Shown in pieces: positions 11,558 through 17,734 of a stretch of 42,334 nucleotides of DNA. The notes below the pieces were generated by a model that saw only the letters and a program-made list of their open reading frames with translations, did no database searches and had not been told where the DNA came from. Every line of letters starts with the position of its first letter. Within the stretch, counting starts at the first letter, position 1. Source of the stretch: Bacillota bacterium (GTDB lineage Bacteria; Bacillota; Halanaerobiia; B1SED10-174); contig SKTZ01000069.1 of assembly GCA_007122335.1 (NCBI GenBank), positions 1 through 42,334 on the forward strand, in the 5' to 3' direction. Position numbers and translations under genes: made by a program.

Positions 11558-11618
11558 TGTGACTCAAATTTGACTCTGTTGTGATTTCGATGTGACTATA
11601 ATCTGGTAATATTTGACC
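11558..11618 (+). promoter_or_regulatory. Activator-type promoter with four 11-bp-phased direct repeats upstream of the usher operon
   Basis: Heptamers TGTGACT (11558), TTTGACT (11569), TGTGATT (11580) and TGTGACT (11591) are exactly 11 bp apart with 4-bp spacers. A fifth, TTTGACC, is at 11612, two helical turns later. TATAAT (11597-11602) overlaps the end of repeat four, and no good -35 hexamer exists 17 bp upstream. This is the geometry of PHO boxes and other OmpR/PhoB-family operators that replace the -35 element. The regulator is not encoded in the window. Transcription from here would give a leader of about 170 nt before the ATG at 11780; apart from a poor promoter look-alike near 11739, I see nothing in that leader. 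Confidence 0.6.
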
Positions 11619-11779: not shown

Positions 11780-12658
11780 ATGGAAATTAAAGTTAATTTT
11801 TTAAAACAATTGGCTGGGATAGTTACCATCTTTACGATTTTTTCTTCAATTATTTTCAGTCAGGCTTCCTTAAGTGCCCCCGGGCAGGAATTAAATTTTG
11901 GCCAGGTAAAAGCAGATGAAGTTCAAACCAGAAAAATTATAATTAACTACCACCCCGAATTTGATAACCCGGATAAATTAGAAATCTGGGCCGAGGGGAA
12001 CTTTTTGTCACCGGAAAAAAACCAACAACTGCCAGCAAATAGAGTTAGGGTCTACATAGCGGATGAAATTTTAACTCTCGAAGAAGACCCCTCTAATTTA
12101 ATTCAAATAGACCCAAAAAACCAAATCCAAATAGTTTTTGAAATTTCCCTAAAGCCCGAAGATCTCCAGGGAGAATATAAGGGGTTGGTTTTCATCAGGG
12201 AAACAAGTGCAAAAGGAGAAAAATCTCAACTGAGAAAGATCCCCCTTCGGGTTAAGGTTGAAGCCTGGCTTAATGTTGAAATAGATTTTTCTGGACCACT
12301 GGTTTTAAGGCACCCTTTAAATGGAGGTACTCAGGTTTTAACTGAAGTTCCCGGCAAAATAAAAGTAAGCGGAAATATCCCCTGGGAACTTCAGGGTTAC
12401 CTCGAAGAAAAATTCCTTTTTGATACTTCTTTAAATATCCAGGTTTTTGCTCATCAGGGAAACTTATTTGAAAAAATTCATTCCGATTGGGTTAATTTAG
12501 GGGAGGATCCAATCCCTCTGGCCATAGGCGATTCTCCCGCTTTGCAACCGGAAAATTATATTGAAGTTGAATTTTCTCTGAGCATTGAAGATTTTACCCG
12601 GGTTAGAGGAGGAGCCCACCAGTTCCCCCTTTCGATTATTGCCCAACCTCGCTCTTAG
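11780..12658 (+). CDS. Secreted two-domain beta protein, first gene of the chaperone-usher-like operon (minor subunit or adaptor?)
   Basis: 292 residues, with an N-terminal hydrophobic signal (about residues 11-32, ending SQASLSA). Two beta-sandwich-like halves follow: residues 36-160, starting with ELNFGQVKADEVQTRKI and closing with GEYKGLVFI, and residues 165-290, closing with GGAHQFPLSII. The closing strands resemble the terminal 'G-x-Y' strand of spore-coat-U and pilin-type subunits. No cysteine is present. It is the first gene after the 11-bp-repeat promoter, and AGGGGAGAG precedes the ATG. A role as tip or minor subunit, or as a second chaperone-like factor, is inferred from position and fold pattern only; no family was recognised with certainty. 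Confidence 0.6.
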   Translation: MEIKVNFLKQLAGIVTIFTIFSSIIFSQASLSAPGQELNFGQVKADEVQTRKIIINYHPEFDNPDKLEIWAEGNFLSPEKNQQLPANRVRVYIADEILTLEEDPSNLIQIDPKNQIQIVFEISLKPEDLQGEYKGLVFIRETSAKGEKSQLRKIPLRVKVEAWLNVEIDFSGPLVLRHPLNGGTQVLTEVPGKIKVSGNIPWELQGYLEEKFLFDTSLNIQVFAHQGNLFEKIHSDWVNLGEDPIPLAIGDSPALQPENYIEVEFSLSIEDFTRVRGGAHQFPLSIIAQPRS

Positions 12659-12662
12659 CGCC

Positions 12663-12700
12663 AACAACTTCACAGCCCCTTGCCCGGGGAGTGAGTTGTT
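12663..12700 (+). other. Strong stem-loop between first and second operon genes
   Basis: AACAACT (12663-12669) pairs with AGTTGTT (12694-12700); inside it CAC pairs with GTG and CCCC with GGGG around a TTGCCC loop, about 14 pairs with small bulges. It starts 5 nt after the stop of the 292-residue gene. Downstream is A/T-rich sequence without a real T-run, so an mRNA processing, stability or attenuation element is more likely than a full terminator. Confidence 0.55.
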
Positions 12701-12731
12701 AATATAAATAATTATATCAGGGAGGTGTTAA

Positions 12732-12836
12732 ATGGAAGAGTTACAACGCCCCAAAAAACTTCATTCGGTGTTTTGGCAAAGGGAAAAAACAGGAGGCGGA
12801 GAACCACCCAATCCTAAACTGGTCACCAACGATTGA
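12732..12836 (+). CDS. Possible 34-residue peptide upstream of the major subunit gene
   Basis: ATG at 12732 follows GGAGGTG with ideal 6-nt spacing. It encodes 34 polar residues (MEELQRPKKLHSVFWQREKT, then GGGEPPNPKLVTND) and a TGA at 12834. No signal peptide, no recognised family. It lies between the stem-loop at 12663-12700 and the subunit gene at 12890. It could be a leader peptide, a small protein or chance; the ribosome binding site is the main support. Confidence 0.35.
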   Translation: MEELQRPKKLHSVFWQREKTGGGEPPNPKLVTND

Positions 12837-12889
12837 GTGGGGAGCCAATGGTGAAACCGGCCAAAATCCAATGAGGAGGTTTTTTAAAA

Positions 12890-13681
12890 ATGAAAAAAAT
12901 GTTAATTCTTAGTCTTGTGATGGTGTTTGTCCTGGGTCTTAGCCTTAGTGTAATGGCTGAAGCTCCTGATCCAATTGTTCCCGGAGAAAATGATCCGGAA
13001 TTTGAAATTGGTAAAGGAATATTCAAAAATTATGAGGGGATCGATAACTTCGCACTTGAAGAAACCGACACTGGTTCAAAATACACTGTTATCTCTGGAG
13101 CAAGAACAACCGGTAGCACAGATGAAATATTCGTAGAACAGGGCGACCAGAAGGTAAAGGTAATAATTAACACCGTAGCCAATATTCCCTGTTACTTAGA
13201 AATGGAACTGACCGGAAACGCAGGCTATAGCCATGGAATCAGCTTTGGTCCTGAAGCAGAAGCTCTTATGGACAGAAGAGGCGAATCCCACTGGATGCTC
13301 TTCCATAGCGATTTCGGCGGATTCCTCAATGAAAACTGGGAATCTGTTGCCCAGGATGATGTAGAAGCCGGAGCCGGGCTTTTCTTACATGCCTGCGATA
13401 TGTGGGAAGCCCGCATATATGGCAATATTGACCACCGGTTTGAGGTAATAGCTGATCCTTTAAAACACGTAGAATATGAAGAAGAGATCCTTATGGATAT
13501 GCGCTATACCTTTGACGGTAGCCCCAACTGGGTTGAAAACACTGAAATCGGGGCAGTAACCGTTGGAGATTTCGGTTACCTGGAAGAAAATACTGTCTAT
13601 ATGCAATTTAGAATTCCTTTTGACGACATTCCTGCAGGTCAATACGAAGGCGACATTACCTTTAAAGCCTATTCTATCTAA
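12890..13681 (+). CDS. Secreted subunit-like protein (probable major fibre/coat subunit of the usher operon)
   Basis: 263 residues. ATG 12890 follows GAGGAGG. The signal peptide covers residues 1-23 (MLILSLVMVFVLGLSLSVMA), with cleavage predicted before EAPDP. The mature protein is acidic and beta-rich, with two cysteines (in IPCYLEM and HACDMW) that could form a disulfide. It ends in DIPAGQYEGDITFKAYSI, a pattern like the C-terminal strand of spore-coat-U and pilin subunits (P-A-G-x-Y then alternating hydrophobics), which in such families is handled by the chaperone. It has its own strong ribosome binding site and a hairpin on each side, as expected for the most abundant product. No exact family recognised. 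Confidence 0.65.
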   Translation: MKKMLILSLVMVFVLGLSLSVMAEAPDPIVPGENDPEFEIGKGIFKNYEGIDNFALEETDTGSKYTVISGARTTGSTDEIFVEQGDQKVKVIINTVANIPCYLEMELTGNAGYSHGISFGPEAEALMDRRGESHWMLFHSDFGGFLNENWESVAQDDVEAGAGLFLHACDMWEARIYGNIDHRFEVIADPLKHVEYEEEILMDMRYTFDGSPNWVENTEIGAVTVGDFGYLEENTVYMQFRIPFDDIPAGQYEGDITFKAYSI

Positions 13682-13714
13682 ATACTAGGCTTGATAAACT
13701 GAGAATTAAAATTA

Positions 13715-13743
13715 AGGGGCTGATGTTTAATGCATCAGCCCCT
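13715..13743 (+). other. Perfect 11-bp stem-loop behind the subunit gene
   Basis: AGGGGCTGATG (13715-13725) and CATCAGCCCCT (13733-13743) pair perfectly around a 7-nt loop, 33 nt after the subunit stop. A-rich sequence follows rather than a T-run, so it is not a normal intrinsic terminator. It would protect the 3' end of the subunit message and reduce downstream expression, as hairpins do behind major pilin genes. Confidence 0.6.
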
Positions 13744-13770
13744 AAAAATAGAAGCGGAGGGATGGTCGTG

Positions 13771-14559
13771 ATGGCCAAAATGGGAAAAATTTTAATGATG
13801 TTTTTTTTACTCTTTGGATTTGTTATTACCACAGAAGCCAGCATTAAGGTTGATCCTTCCCGCGTAATTTTCCACATGGAACAGGGCCAAAGAAAAACAG
13901 GGTCAATTCAGGTTTACAATAACTCCAACCGGGAACTTGACCTTATTGCTGTTCTTTATGATTGGGAGCTGGATGAAGCAGATAATCTGGTTAATTACGA
14001 AAGCGGAACTCTTGAACATAGCCTTGATGATTTAATTCGGTTTAATCCCCGGCAATTCACCCTGGGACCAGGTGAATCCCAGCTGGTTAGGTTTACAATA
14101 ACTTTTCCGGAAGAAGAAAACCCTTTTGAAAGAAGAGGAATAATATTTTTTGAGCATGAGGACCCTCTTGATGAAGAAGATGTAATGGGAGCCCAGCTCC
14201 GAACAATGATCGGAACAACTGTTTATGCTCTGCCTGAAATTTATGAAATTTCTCTTTATTATCTCGAAGGTTTGGTCCATGAGAGTGAAGATGGAACCTT
14301 CTGGGGTGCATTTCTTTTAGGCAATAATTCTCCAGTTCACACTCGGTTAGAAGTTGATTACAATATTATTAATCATCGCGGCGCGGTCATTGAGGAAGGG
14401 CGTTCCGAAGAGAAGGTTATCCTGCCTCAGGACGTTCGGGGAATTTATTTCCCTCTGGAAGAAGATTTCGAACCGGGAAATTATCAACTACTATTCGATA
14501 TCAACCTGGTAGGAATTGATTTTACTATTTCCGAATCTATTTCGTTCGAAATTGAGTGA
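13771..14559 (+). CDS. PapD-like periplasmic chaperone (fimbrial/coat assembly)
   Basis: 262 residues. Signal peptide MAKMGKILMMFFLLFGFVIT, ending in TEA before SIKVDP. The N-terminal Ig-like domain (mature residues 1-125) has the chaperone pattern: SIKVDPSRVIFHMEQGQRKT with a GSIQVYN strand, then an F-x-L-x-P-G-E-S-Q-L-V-R-F-T stretch corresponding to the donor strand region. The second Ig-like domain ends with IDFTISESISFEIE. This matches DUF916/PapD-like assembly chaperones rather than a structural subunit. ATG 13771 is chosen, 9-10 nt after GGAGGG; upstream in-frame ATGs lie on the ribosome binding site or inside the hairpin. Its TGA overlaps the possible GTG start of the usher gene. Confidence 0.75.
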   Translation: MAKMGKILMMFFLLFGFVITTEASIKVDPSRVIFHMEQGQRKTGSIQVYNNSNRELDLIAVLYDWELDEADNLVNYESGTLEHSLDDLIRFNPRQFTLGPGESQLVRFTITFPEEENPFERRGIIFFEHEDPLDEEDVMGAQLRTMIGTTVYALPEIYEISLYYLEGLVHESEDGTFWGAFLLGNNSPVHTRLEVDYNIINHRGAVIEEGRSEEKVILPQDVRGIYFPLEEDFEPGNYQLLFDINLVGIDFTISESISFEIE

Positions 14560-14564
14560 TAAAA

Positions 14565-17500
14565 ATGGAACCCATTTTTCTGGATAAACTCCAAAAGCAA
14601 CCGAAAAAAAGGTTCCCAGTTAATTTCTTTTTAATTTTATTAATATTGCTTGCCCTGGGTTTTCCTGTGAAAGGAGCCCACTTTGAAGATGTTAGCTTCG
14701 TAACCCTGGAAATTAAAAAGAATGATTATGTTTTCCAGACAGAGGAATTCTTTGAAATTATAGACCTTTTTGATTATATCCTGATCCCTGTTAATCAGCT
14801 TTCCGTTTTTTTACCGATTGAGTTGAACTTTGCCAGAGAAAATGAAACCCTGGAAATAACTCACAAAACCTCCGGTACTTCGGGTAAAGTGGATTTCAAA
14901 AAGGGCTTATATTCAGAGTTTCCAGATCTAAAAACCAAAACACCCATTTTATATGAAGGAGACTTTTTTGTAGCACCTGAATTTTTGGAGAAAATAACGG
15001 GAAAAAGTTTGGAATGGAATTCAAGAAGGCAGGAACTTTATGTTCATGTTGACTGGGAAATTCCTGAAACAGAAAAAGGAAGAGCAGAAGAACCAGGGGA
15101 ACGTGACCGACCTCATGAACTGGAAACCCTTGAGTTAAAACCAACCCACTACGGCCGGGATATTTCCCTGGGATCAATCCATTATAAAATAACTGGAGAA
15201 GGGCGCTGGGATAAGGATGGTGATTTTAGTTCCCATTCCCGGCAGGAGGTGTACCTCCACGGTAGGTTTCATGATTGGGCGGTTTCATTAGGATTTTCTT
15301 CCAGGTTAAACTTTTTAGAAAAGGGAATAGAAAGCCACCTATCAGTCCCTTTAATCAGGGCCCTTTATCTTGATGAATACCGCATTGTTATTGGTGATTC
15401 CAGGGTAGAATTCCCTTTAACCGTGGGAAATAAAAACCTGCGGGGAATTCTTTACAGTAACCCCGCTTTTTTAACCAGAAAAGACACCCCCAGGGTGAAG
15501 GTTACCGGTGAAGCCAGGGAAGACGAATGGGTATATTTACTGGTTAATGGAGAAAAGACCAGTAAAAAATATATGGCAGAAGATGGCCGTTATTCCTTTG
15601 CAAACGTTCCGTTGATAAACAAAAGAACAAACCTTATTCAAATAATCAGGGAAAGACCCGATGGAGAACTGATTGAAGAAAGACGGGAGATCGGAGGACA
15701 TGTTAGGATCCTCGAAGAGGGAATCAGCGAGGTTAAATTTGTTGCGGGTAGTTATCAAAGAAGCAATGAAGAGGAAAGCCAGGGAAGGTTAATCGGCTTG
15801 CAGTTGAATGAAGCGTTGGATAAACGCAGCTCTTTCAACCTGGAATTGTTAGGCCGAGAGGTCCTGACTCAAGACAGTTGGGAGCCATTTGAACTCGGGG
15901 GAATAGCTGGTTTTTCTCTACAACCTTTGCAGTCCCTAATCCTTACCGGAGATTTTTTATTCGGTGGAGAAGTTGAAAATTTAAAAGGAGGCTTTGCCAG
16001 TTCCCTTATTTATACCCTTTCCCGTGGTTATTTAAGTTCTTCCTATAGGTATATCCCCCACGAAATAACCGAGATTGTAGATAAAAATGCTGGAAAACAA
16101 TTGCAGGTGGCCGGGGAATATGATTTTTCTCCCAGGTGGAGTTCTTTTTTCCAGGGTAATTATCGAGAATCAATTGGAACTATGCTTTTTTATTCAATAA
16201 CACAAGGCCAACTTGGATTTTCCTACAGAGATGTCTGGGATGGAACAACTACTGTTTCCGGAATTCTGGGAACAGGCCAGCGGGATCTGGAAACGGGTCA
16301 GGACCAACTTACAAGAGCTGATTTTGATAAATACGGCCTTAATATAAGCAGGCAGAGAAGGACAGAAGTTTTCTCTTCAAGGACAAATTTGAATTATACC
16401 AAAACTGATTTTGATTTCCAGCAAGCTTCTTCCCATTCAGAACAGAGATTGGAATTAACCAGTAATATATCCCGGAGAATCGGGGAAACCGTTCGTTTAA
16501 CTAATAACCTTGATCTTTCCTTGTTCTGGCTGGAAAAAGAACTGATCCAGGGAGAAGGAGAAATTAATTCGGGTTTTAGATGGAATCCAACCCTGAATAC
16601 ATTCGTCAGAGGAACTGGTTCCGCACTGTTCCAGGTGGGAAACAACCTGCCCGCTGGCTTTAACCTAAGAGAATCAAAAGCAAGTTTTTCCTTGCGAAGA
16701 TTTTTGCGAAGAACCGGTTCTTCTTTTGGGGTTGAAGGAAGCTACAATTTTCTCCATTACATTGAGGATTCCTATTTCACCCTGGGATTTGACCTGGCTC
16801 ATCAATGGCAGGATGAAAAATATACTGCCGGGTTAAATTTCACAGCCAAGTCCCCCGTTGAAAGAAGAGAGACCTATCAACTCTCTGCAGGATTGGAGTT
16901 TGGCTGGAGACTTCCTTCAGAAGCCTTAATAGAATTTCAGGCGCAGAGAATTTACCAAAATCTTTTTGAGGAACAACCGGAACATTCGGTTTCTGTTTCC
17001 ATTAACCATGCTCTGGGTTTTTCGGGGAAAGAAATCTTTGGCCAGAGCTACTCCTCCAGAGGCACCCACCAGCCCACAATCGCAGGAATTGTCTACCTGG
17101 ATAAAAACCAGACCGGGGAATTTAATGAAGGGGATCCCGTTCTAGAAAATATTCCCATGGCTCTCGGAGGCAGAAGGACAGAAACGGATGGAAGCGGAGA
17201 ATTTAAATTTGAGCGGGTTAAACCCGGTGTCTACCCCTTACATTTTGATCTTGGTTCCTTGCTTGCTGATTATTCGGTAATTACCGAGGAGAAGATCGTG
17301 GAAATCAGGGAGAACGAAAATCTATTTTTCTATTTTGGTTTAACCCTGAATGGATCTATTTCCGGCCGGGTATTCATGGACAGAAATGCTTCAGGAACCT
17401 TTGATGAGGGAGATGAGCCCTTATCCTGGGTTGCTTTAGAACTGGCCACAACTGGAGAAAATGCTTATTCAAGAAGTAATGGCGAGTTTTATTTTGAAAA

Positions 17501-17654
17501 TGTTCCCCTGGGCAAGCATGAAATAAAAGTTTCAACAGAGGGGCTTCCACCCAATACCGTGCCTAAAGAGGATAGCATCACTGTTGAAATAGCCCGGGAA
17601 GACCTGGAAAAAGGAGAGATATTGATCCCAATTCGGTACAGGGTTGATAATTAA
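14565..17654 (+). CDS. Usher-like outer-membrane assembly protein with two C-terminal SdrB-type domains
   Basis: 1029 residues; signal peptide in the first 38 (FFLILLILLALGFPVKG). In order: a small alpha/beta domain (about 40-165) with ILIPVNQLSVFL, resembling copper-amine-oxidase-N-like modules; a charged linker; barrel strands from about 195; a plug/Ig-like region (about 300-380) with GILYSNPAFL, RVKVTGEA, VYLLVNGE and YSFANVPL, the usher pattern; then long alternating-hydrophobic beta strands to about 840. The end carries two Ca-loop modules, DKNQTGEFNEGD near 848 and DRNASGTFDEGD near 938, as in SdrD B-type repeats. ATG 14565 is used; a GTG at 14556 overlaps the chaperone stop. Usher function is inferred from motif pattern, size and neighbours. 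Confidence 0.72.
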   Translation: MEPIFLDKLQKQPKKRFPVNFFLILLILLALGFPVKGAHFEDVSFVTLEIKKNDYVFQTEEFFEIIDLFDYILIPVNQLSVFLPIELNFARENETLEITHKTSGTSGKVDFKKGLYSEFPDLKTKTPILYEGDFFVAPEFLEKITGKSLEWNSRRQELYVHVDWEIPETEKGRAEEPGERDRPHELETLELKPTHYGRDISLGSIHYKITGEGRWDKDGDFSSHSRQEVYLHGRFHDWAVSLGFSSRLNFLEKGIESHLSVPLIRALYLDEYRIVIGDSRVEFPLTVGNKNLRGILYSNPAFLTRKDTPRVKVTGEAREDEWVYLLVNGEKTSKKYMAEDGRYSFANVPLINKRTNLIQIIRERPDGELIEERREIGGHVRILEEGISEVKFVAGSYQRSNEEESQGRLIGLQLNEALDKRSSFNLELLGREVLTQDSWEPFELGGIAGFSLQPLQSLILTGDFLFGGEVENLKGGFASSLIYTLSRGYLSSSYRYIPHEITEIVDKNAGKQLQVAGEYDFSPRWSSFFQGNYRESIGTMLFYSITQGQLGFSYRDVWDGTTTVSGILGTGQRDLETGQDQLTRADFDKYGLNISRQRRTEVFSSRTNLNYTKTDFDFQQASSHSEQRLELTSNISRRIGETVRLTNNLDLSLFWLEKELIQGEGEINSGFRWNPTLNTFVRGTGSALFQVGNNLPAGFNLRESKASFSLRRFLRRTGSSFGVEGSYNFLHYIEDSYFTLGFDLAHQWQDEKYTAGLNFTAKSPVERRETYQLSAGLEFGWRLPSEALIEFQAQRIYQNLFEEQPEHSVSVSINHALGFSGKEIFGQSYSSRGTHQPTIAGIVYLDKNQTGEFNEGDPVLENIPMALGGRRTETDGSGEFKFERVKPGVYPLHFDLGSLLADYSVITEEKIVEIRENENLFFYFGLTLNGSISGRVFMDRNASGTFDEGDEPLSWVALELATTGENAYSRSNGEFYFENVPLGKHEIKVSTEGLPPNTVPKEDSITVEIAREDLEKGEILIPIRYRVDN

Positions 17655-17694: not shown

Positions 17695-17734
17695 AGATAT
17701 ACCCTGCTCTTTGTTGCAGGGTATATCTTTTTTT
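17695..17734 (+). terminator. Intrinsic terminator of the usher operon
   Basis: AGATATACCCTGC (17695-17707) and GCAGGGTATATCT (17716-17728) form a perfect 13-bp stem with an 8-nt loop, followed by a T-run to 17734. It lies 41 nt after the usher stop. Confidence 0.92.

Follow-up and report, generated by a model that had tools for sequence, protein, structure and literature searches.

Chaperone-usher fibers are known from Proteobacteria, Cyanobacteria, and Deinococcus-Thermus (PMC4654587), and in the open-access literature that we searched we found no report of such fibers in Firmicutes and none of riboswitch control of a chaperone-usher fiber. Here, we analyzed a four-gene operon (genes A to D, plus strand) on contig SKTZ01000069.1 of assembly GCA_007122335.1, from a Bacillota bacterium (Halanaerobiia; B1SED10-174) whose assembly totals 2.4 Mb; the contig was taken at its full length of 42,334 nt and is called the window below. 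The host is a two-membraned (diderm), salt- or soda-loving Firmicute related to Clostridia, and its operon very probably encodes a strongly diverged chaperone-usher fiber system in which the likely major subunit, B, would be under riboswitch control. With the alternative and archaic pathways (Ecp, CfaA, and Csu), it shares a periplasmic chaperone of two immunoglobulin-like (Ig) domains with Pro60, Arg89, and Arg148, an usher with a plug and C-terminal domains, and the gene order subunit-chaperone-usher, whereas it differs from them in carrying Val, Ile, or Leu for Tyr169, in keeping a classical-type Arg8, in an usher N-domain unrelated by profile, and in its larger subunits unlike pilin families, its Bacillota host, and its riboswitch. 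Operons on plasmids of Polaromonas sp. JS666, Pseudoalteromonas xiamenensis, and Deinococcus have a similar gene order, a homologous chaperone and usher, and the same SdrD_B C-terminal domains, but as subunits they have DUF4402 pilins (160-200 aa) or unnamed proteins. These operons link C (44-80 bits) and D (7-63 bits) to DUF4402 pilins and PapD_N chaperones, and those of Polaromonas and Pseudoalteromonas combine DUF4402 pilins with chaperones that exceed the PapD_N cut-off.

Gene C (13771-14559, plus strand; open frame 13723-14559, 278 aa) encodes a periplasmic two-domain Ig chaperone that is a remote homologue of the PapD-type chaperones, as an earlier reading of the window from sequence alone (hereafter the sequence-only reading) had proposed. 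Set against 11 E. coli chaperones in a profile-profile alignment, it scored 97.4% (E 9.5e-12), compared with 0.6% for the reversed profile; hhalign E-values are those of single comparisons, and reversed-profile controls are therefore given. A search of the whole PDB with a C profile of Halanaerobiia members alone yielded one match, EcpB (E 0.026), and a wider profile matched EfmWxLIP1 (1.7e-8, both domains), EcpB (1.9e-6), another pilus chaperone, and CfaA (0.049). Eight members of the C family matched PapD_N at E <= 0.1. We then compared 17 C sequences at the chaperone residues tested in PMC4654587. Equivalents of Pro60 and Arg89 were present in 17/17 and of Arg148 in 16/17; the Arg89 equivalent is R138 of C, where classical E. 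coli chaperones carry Glu, and Arg89 of CsuC and EcpB is the most characteristic residue of the non-classical (archaic or alternative) chaperones (PMC4654587). A classical-type Arg8-like residue also occurred in 16 of the 17, while the Tyr169 (EcpB)/Tyr196 (CsuC) anchor was replaced by Val, Ile, or Leu in all of them and the classical Lys112 by Thr, Val, or Leu. Because Pro60, Arg89, Arg148, and Arg8 are kept and Tyr169 and Lys112 are absent, the predicted anchor of C is mixed.

Gene D (14556-17654, plus strand) encodes an usher-like outer-membrane protein of 1032 aa from a GTG start that overlaps the stop of C, or of 1029 aa if counted from the ATG three codons after it. D is a remote homologue of the FimD/PapC-type ushers. 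In an alignment of 660 columns, an extended D profile matched a set of nine E. coli ushers at 98.1% (E 8e-14; reversed 6-10%), and the plug region (94.6%, E 6.5e-8) and the C-terminal domains (86%, E 5e-6), each cut out alone, matched them independently and in the same order. The protein comprises an N-domain (residues ~42-190), a predicted barrel (195-830) containing the plug region (313-376), and two SdrD_B/CarboxypepD_reg domains (840-1032), which are its sole Pfam matches over cut-off.

Genes A (11780-12658, 292 aa, beta-rich) and B (12890-13681, 263 aa), both on the plus strand, encode putative fiber subunits, A possibly a minor or tip subunit. We call them subunits because of their position, their export, and the match of their C-terminal regions to pilin-like neighbors, i.e., small proteins in the same operon position at related loci. 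This match reached 95.2% (E 2.6e-8) for the C-terminal half of A and 95.7% (E 8.9e-9) for the C-terminal 105 aa of B, with reversed profiles below 1% in both cases; the pilin-like neighbors in turn matched E. coli pilins in the last strand only (65.8%), and against the PDB the small pilin-like profile gave weak antibody light-chain matches alone among the best 60 listed. Neither A nor B matched a Pfam family at E <= 1, an NCBIfam model, or the SCPU family PF05229, in keeping with the earlier remark that the subunits belong to no nameable family. The four exported same-strand proteins of the sequence-only reading were found as open reading frames where it had placed them, each with an N-terminal signal-peptide-like stretch. 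Its assignment of the system to an archaic, spore-coat-U-like clade, by contrast, was not borne out, as SCPU was not matched, the best solved pilus chaperone was EcpB of the alternative clade, and the nearest systems use DUF4402 pilins.

The locus is widely conserved. D was detected in 22 of 59 class genomes, in a few of them by a weak match, and the order A-B-C-D, for which a survey had been suggested earlier, was retained in many genomes at pairwise identities of 16-89%, as well as beyond the class in three Bacillota families (f18, f31, and f36). Because this order recurs in many genomes, the four-gene arrangement is not due to chance. The nearest named record, a Halobacteroidaceae metagenome-assembled genome, holds all four genes, its D being 82% identical, and in other Bacillota genomes homologues of C and D have as neighbors proteins of 160-205 aa whose C-terminal strand is pilin-like; scans of viral contigs found no further relatives. 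Consistent with the diderm host that the sequence-only reading had inferred, this lineage encodes Omp85, an outer-membrane assembly protein. Across Bacillota, Omp85 exceeded its cut-off in 77 of 300 genomes overall and in 19 of 20 genomes that matched C strongly (Fisher p 1.5e-11, a value that overstates independence because the genomes are related). The one strong-C genome lacking it, the draft genome G082 (7% contamination), carries C and a pilin-like gene and no D.

We found a cyclic di-GMP (c-di-GMP) class II riboswitch aptamer in front of B (12783-12871, plus strand), its 3' end lying 18 nt upstream of the gene; the sequence-only reading had not noted it, nor the conservation of the hairpin described below. 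It scored 41.2 bits against RF03169 (gathering score 40) and 45.5 bits (E 4.1e-9) against RF01786, under the gathering score of 53.5 for that family. The A-B spacer that contains it includes ~110 nt that are nearly invariant between the window and locus L049. Within the two nearest genera, a riboswitch preceded B at 7/7 loci in which A-B or the region before B is retained, among them L041, L043, L044, L045, L049, and contig C27; the copies before B in genomes G001, G002, G003 (C136), and G004 scored 56-64 bits against RF01786, and in G041 a c-di-GMP-II riboswitch precedes a DUF4402 pilin-chaperone-usher operon. Overall, nine riboswitches adjoined usher loci versus 0.18 expected, an estimate based on rounded values of genome size and locus span. 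By inspection, the Halanaerobium-like and f18/f31 loci have no riboswitch before B, and because of this absence the link between riboswitch and B is lineage-specific. The genome also holds 16 GGDEF matches, 15 of them over cut-off. A 34-codon open reading frame at 12732-12836, which overlaps the riboswitch, was not taken as a gene. In family f31 (L133, L136, and L144), a conserved hairpin-like motif, GGTTACA...CCGG...GTAA, stands between A and B in place of the riboswitch.

A second RNA element follows B, a conserved intercistronic hairpin (13715-13743, plus strand) with covariation: 97.7% of cells were paired, compared to 33-53% in slid controls, and 5 of the 11 pairs had changed on both sides. 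In pilin operons, the part of the mRNA that encodes the major subunit is known to be stabilized relative to the remainder, and the hairpin would be as expected for such a stabilized major-subunit message. B is likely the major fiber subunit because it alone sits between the c-di-GMP-II riboswitch and this hairpin. The start of C more likely lies at ATG 13771, behind GGAGGG, because the upstream ATG falls within the hairpin.

In the mechanism that we propose, the secreted proteins A and B would be captured in the periplasm by C, which would donate its G1 strand to the open Ig-like domain at the C-terminus of each, and D, a plugged outer-membrane barrel with C-terminal domains, would thread them to the surface as a fiber. 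A predicted anti-Shine-Dalgarno helix, formed by a 5' strand at 12758-12777 (plus strand) and a 3' strand at 12861-12877, has a duplex energy of -15.4 kcal/mol that none of 300 shuffles equaled, and part of the Shine-Dalgarno sequence of B, AGGAGG (12874-12879, plus strand), lies within the predicted 3' strand. Such flanks, pairing across the aptamer and covering part of the Shine-Dalgarno sequence, were better than shuffles in 4/7 loci. At high c-di-GMP, the aptamer probably frees the Shine-Dalgarno sequence from this helix and would thereby turn on synthesis of the major subunit, so that the fiber would be made in the sessile state. The opposite possibility, that the riboswitch works in the OFF direction or as an antiterminator for B-C-D only and that the fiber belongs to the planktonic state, seems to us doubtful but worth weighing: folding alone does not settle the direction of the switch, whereas CCAAUGAGGAGG, at the Shine-Dalgarno sequence, is a possible pairing partner of the 5' strand beside the aptamer, no terminator-like site was found on the plus strand between aptamer and B, and the class II c-di-GMP riboswitches of Clostridioides difficile are ON switches (PMC11477304). 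By analogy with these, we favor an ON switch before B. The type IV pili of C. difficile (PMC11477304) share with our locus a riboswitch of the same class before a fiber operon, but they are unrelated to chaperone-usher fibers, and control there is transcriptional while here it appears to be translational.

The apparatus may also have been derived from a chaperone-usher system and serve to export one or two proteins, soluble or anchored at the surface, that do not polymerize into a fiber. Both A (292 aa) and B (263 aa) exceed the size of pilins, and in several genomes a solitary usher, with no A, B, or C nearby, adjoins one large secreted protein (L051, 5509-7812; L055, 11164-12906), the gene for which lies behind a c-di-GMP-II riboswitch in two genomes; such pairs suggest a one-substrate version of the system. 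For the operon in the window we nevertheless regard such a secretion device as unlikely, since the C-terminal strand pattern of B (F-R-[VI]-P ... G-x-Y-x-G-x-[VI]-x-F), its two invariant Cys residues, and the hairpin at its 3' end fit an abundant repeating subunit and since relatives use typical DUF4402 pilins.

Several results weigh against a chaperone-usher fiber system as such. By profile, the N-domain of D gave no signal against usher N-domains (PapC_N, 1.8%), nor did its second barrel half against ushers (0.5%), and Cu_amine_oxidN1 matched 21 of 38 D relatives at E <= 0.1, falling on the N-domain wherever its position was shown. The Pfam Usher model PF00577 did not match D of the window and exceeded its cut-off in none of the 59 class genomes, and it also misses the scanned ushers of the plasmid operons mentioned above; of its matches in G058, all but the one inside D were rejected as barrel-bearing peptidase-like proteins rather than ushers. 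Usher chains in the PDB were not matched by D. The usher proposed by the sequence-only reading is supported by profile homology that includes the plug region and C-terminal domains, with its N-domain unmatched; of the profile checks suggested there, those for usher and PapD homology succeeded by profile-profile comparison, whereas SCPU and Pfam Usher gave nothing. For A and B, no signal against E. coli pilins appeared past the signal peptide, and the pilin-like neighbor set was picked by neighborhood, partly by eye. AlphaFold on two-sequence alignments (window and L003) reached pLDDT values of 27.8 (D) and 39 (B), too low for use. The anti-Shine-Dalgarno pairing was no better than shuffles in L041, L044, and L045. 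Finally, no Pfam or NCBIfam family reached its cut-off for C, and its best PDB match is a WxLIP protein rather than a pilus chaperone.

That C is a WxLIP-type scaffold, A and B are cell-wall surface proteins, and D is an unrelated SdrD_B-bearing barrel, with no pilus at all, appears very improbable to us: it draws on EfmWxLIP1 as the best solved match of C, on WxLIP_PGBD as its best Pfam match (below cut-off), and on SdrD_B/CarboxypepD_reg as the strongest Pfam matches of D, yet 10 chaperone-usher-bearing genomes, the window's own included, have no WxL domain over cut-off, the plug and C-terminal regions of D match ushers in the right order, related chaperones exceed the PapD_N cut-off, and the operon partners are pilin-like. 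EfmWxLIP1 (PDB 9i25/9i1y), from the monoderm Enterococcus, aligned with both Ig domains of C (13771-14559), the alignment covering GAQLRTMIG/GAQIKNRIA, where the donor strand is predicted. In a published AlphaFold model, a WxLIP strand completes the WxL beta-sandwich in parallel (PMC10599100), which resembles the donor strands of chaperones, although WxLIP carries a transmembrane helix at its C-terminus (PMC10599100) and WxL domains were lacking in the genomes tested here. Tentatively, the WxLIP/WxL pairs of monoderm Firmicutes could descend from this chaperone-usher system after loss of the outer membrane and usher, with WxLIP the former chaperone, the WxL domain the former subunit, and strand donation kept; the diderm operon would then be a living intermediate, a scenario that we consider possible and rather less than probable.

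If the chaperone-usher reading of the operon is correct, several diderm Firmicute lineages share an outer-membrane fiber machine that standard models overlook, which would bring an outer-membrane system into the debate over whether Firmicutes had a diderm ancestor and would offer a testable case of c-di-GMP acting through RNA on a pilus subunit.

The remaining features of the operon lie at its ends. The perfect terminator that the sequence-only reading had described is present at 17695-17728 (plus strand), with a 13-bp stem followed by TTTTTT. Upstream of A, a candidate promoter region (11559-11602, plus strand) was read from the sequence: the repeats TGACT/TGACT/TGATT/TGACT at 11560, 11571, 11582, and 11593 run with an exact 11-bp period into TATAAT (11597-11602). 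The repeats, which are also kept in L049, resemble the direct-repeat boxes of OmpR-type regulators. The same genome carries a second system, of which contig C14 holds D and contig C27 holds A, a riboswitch, and the beginning of B; on C27 (L155, G000:C27, 1288-3293), it is preceded by two proteins of 94-96 aa, which have no Pfam match, and a BTAD-domain transcription factor. Two such small proteins and a BTAD-domain factor likewise lie upstream of A in L043, L044, and L048. In four loci (L043, L044, L046, and L047) a second usher directly follows the first and does not have the last SdrD_B-like domain. L048 (G005:C133, 5590-10813) is a broken copy of the operon, in which a split A has become fused with C, D is in pieces, and an unrelated transposase-like gene of ~400 aa interrupts the locus.

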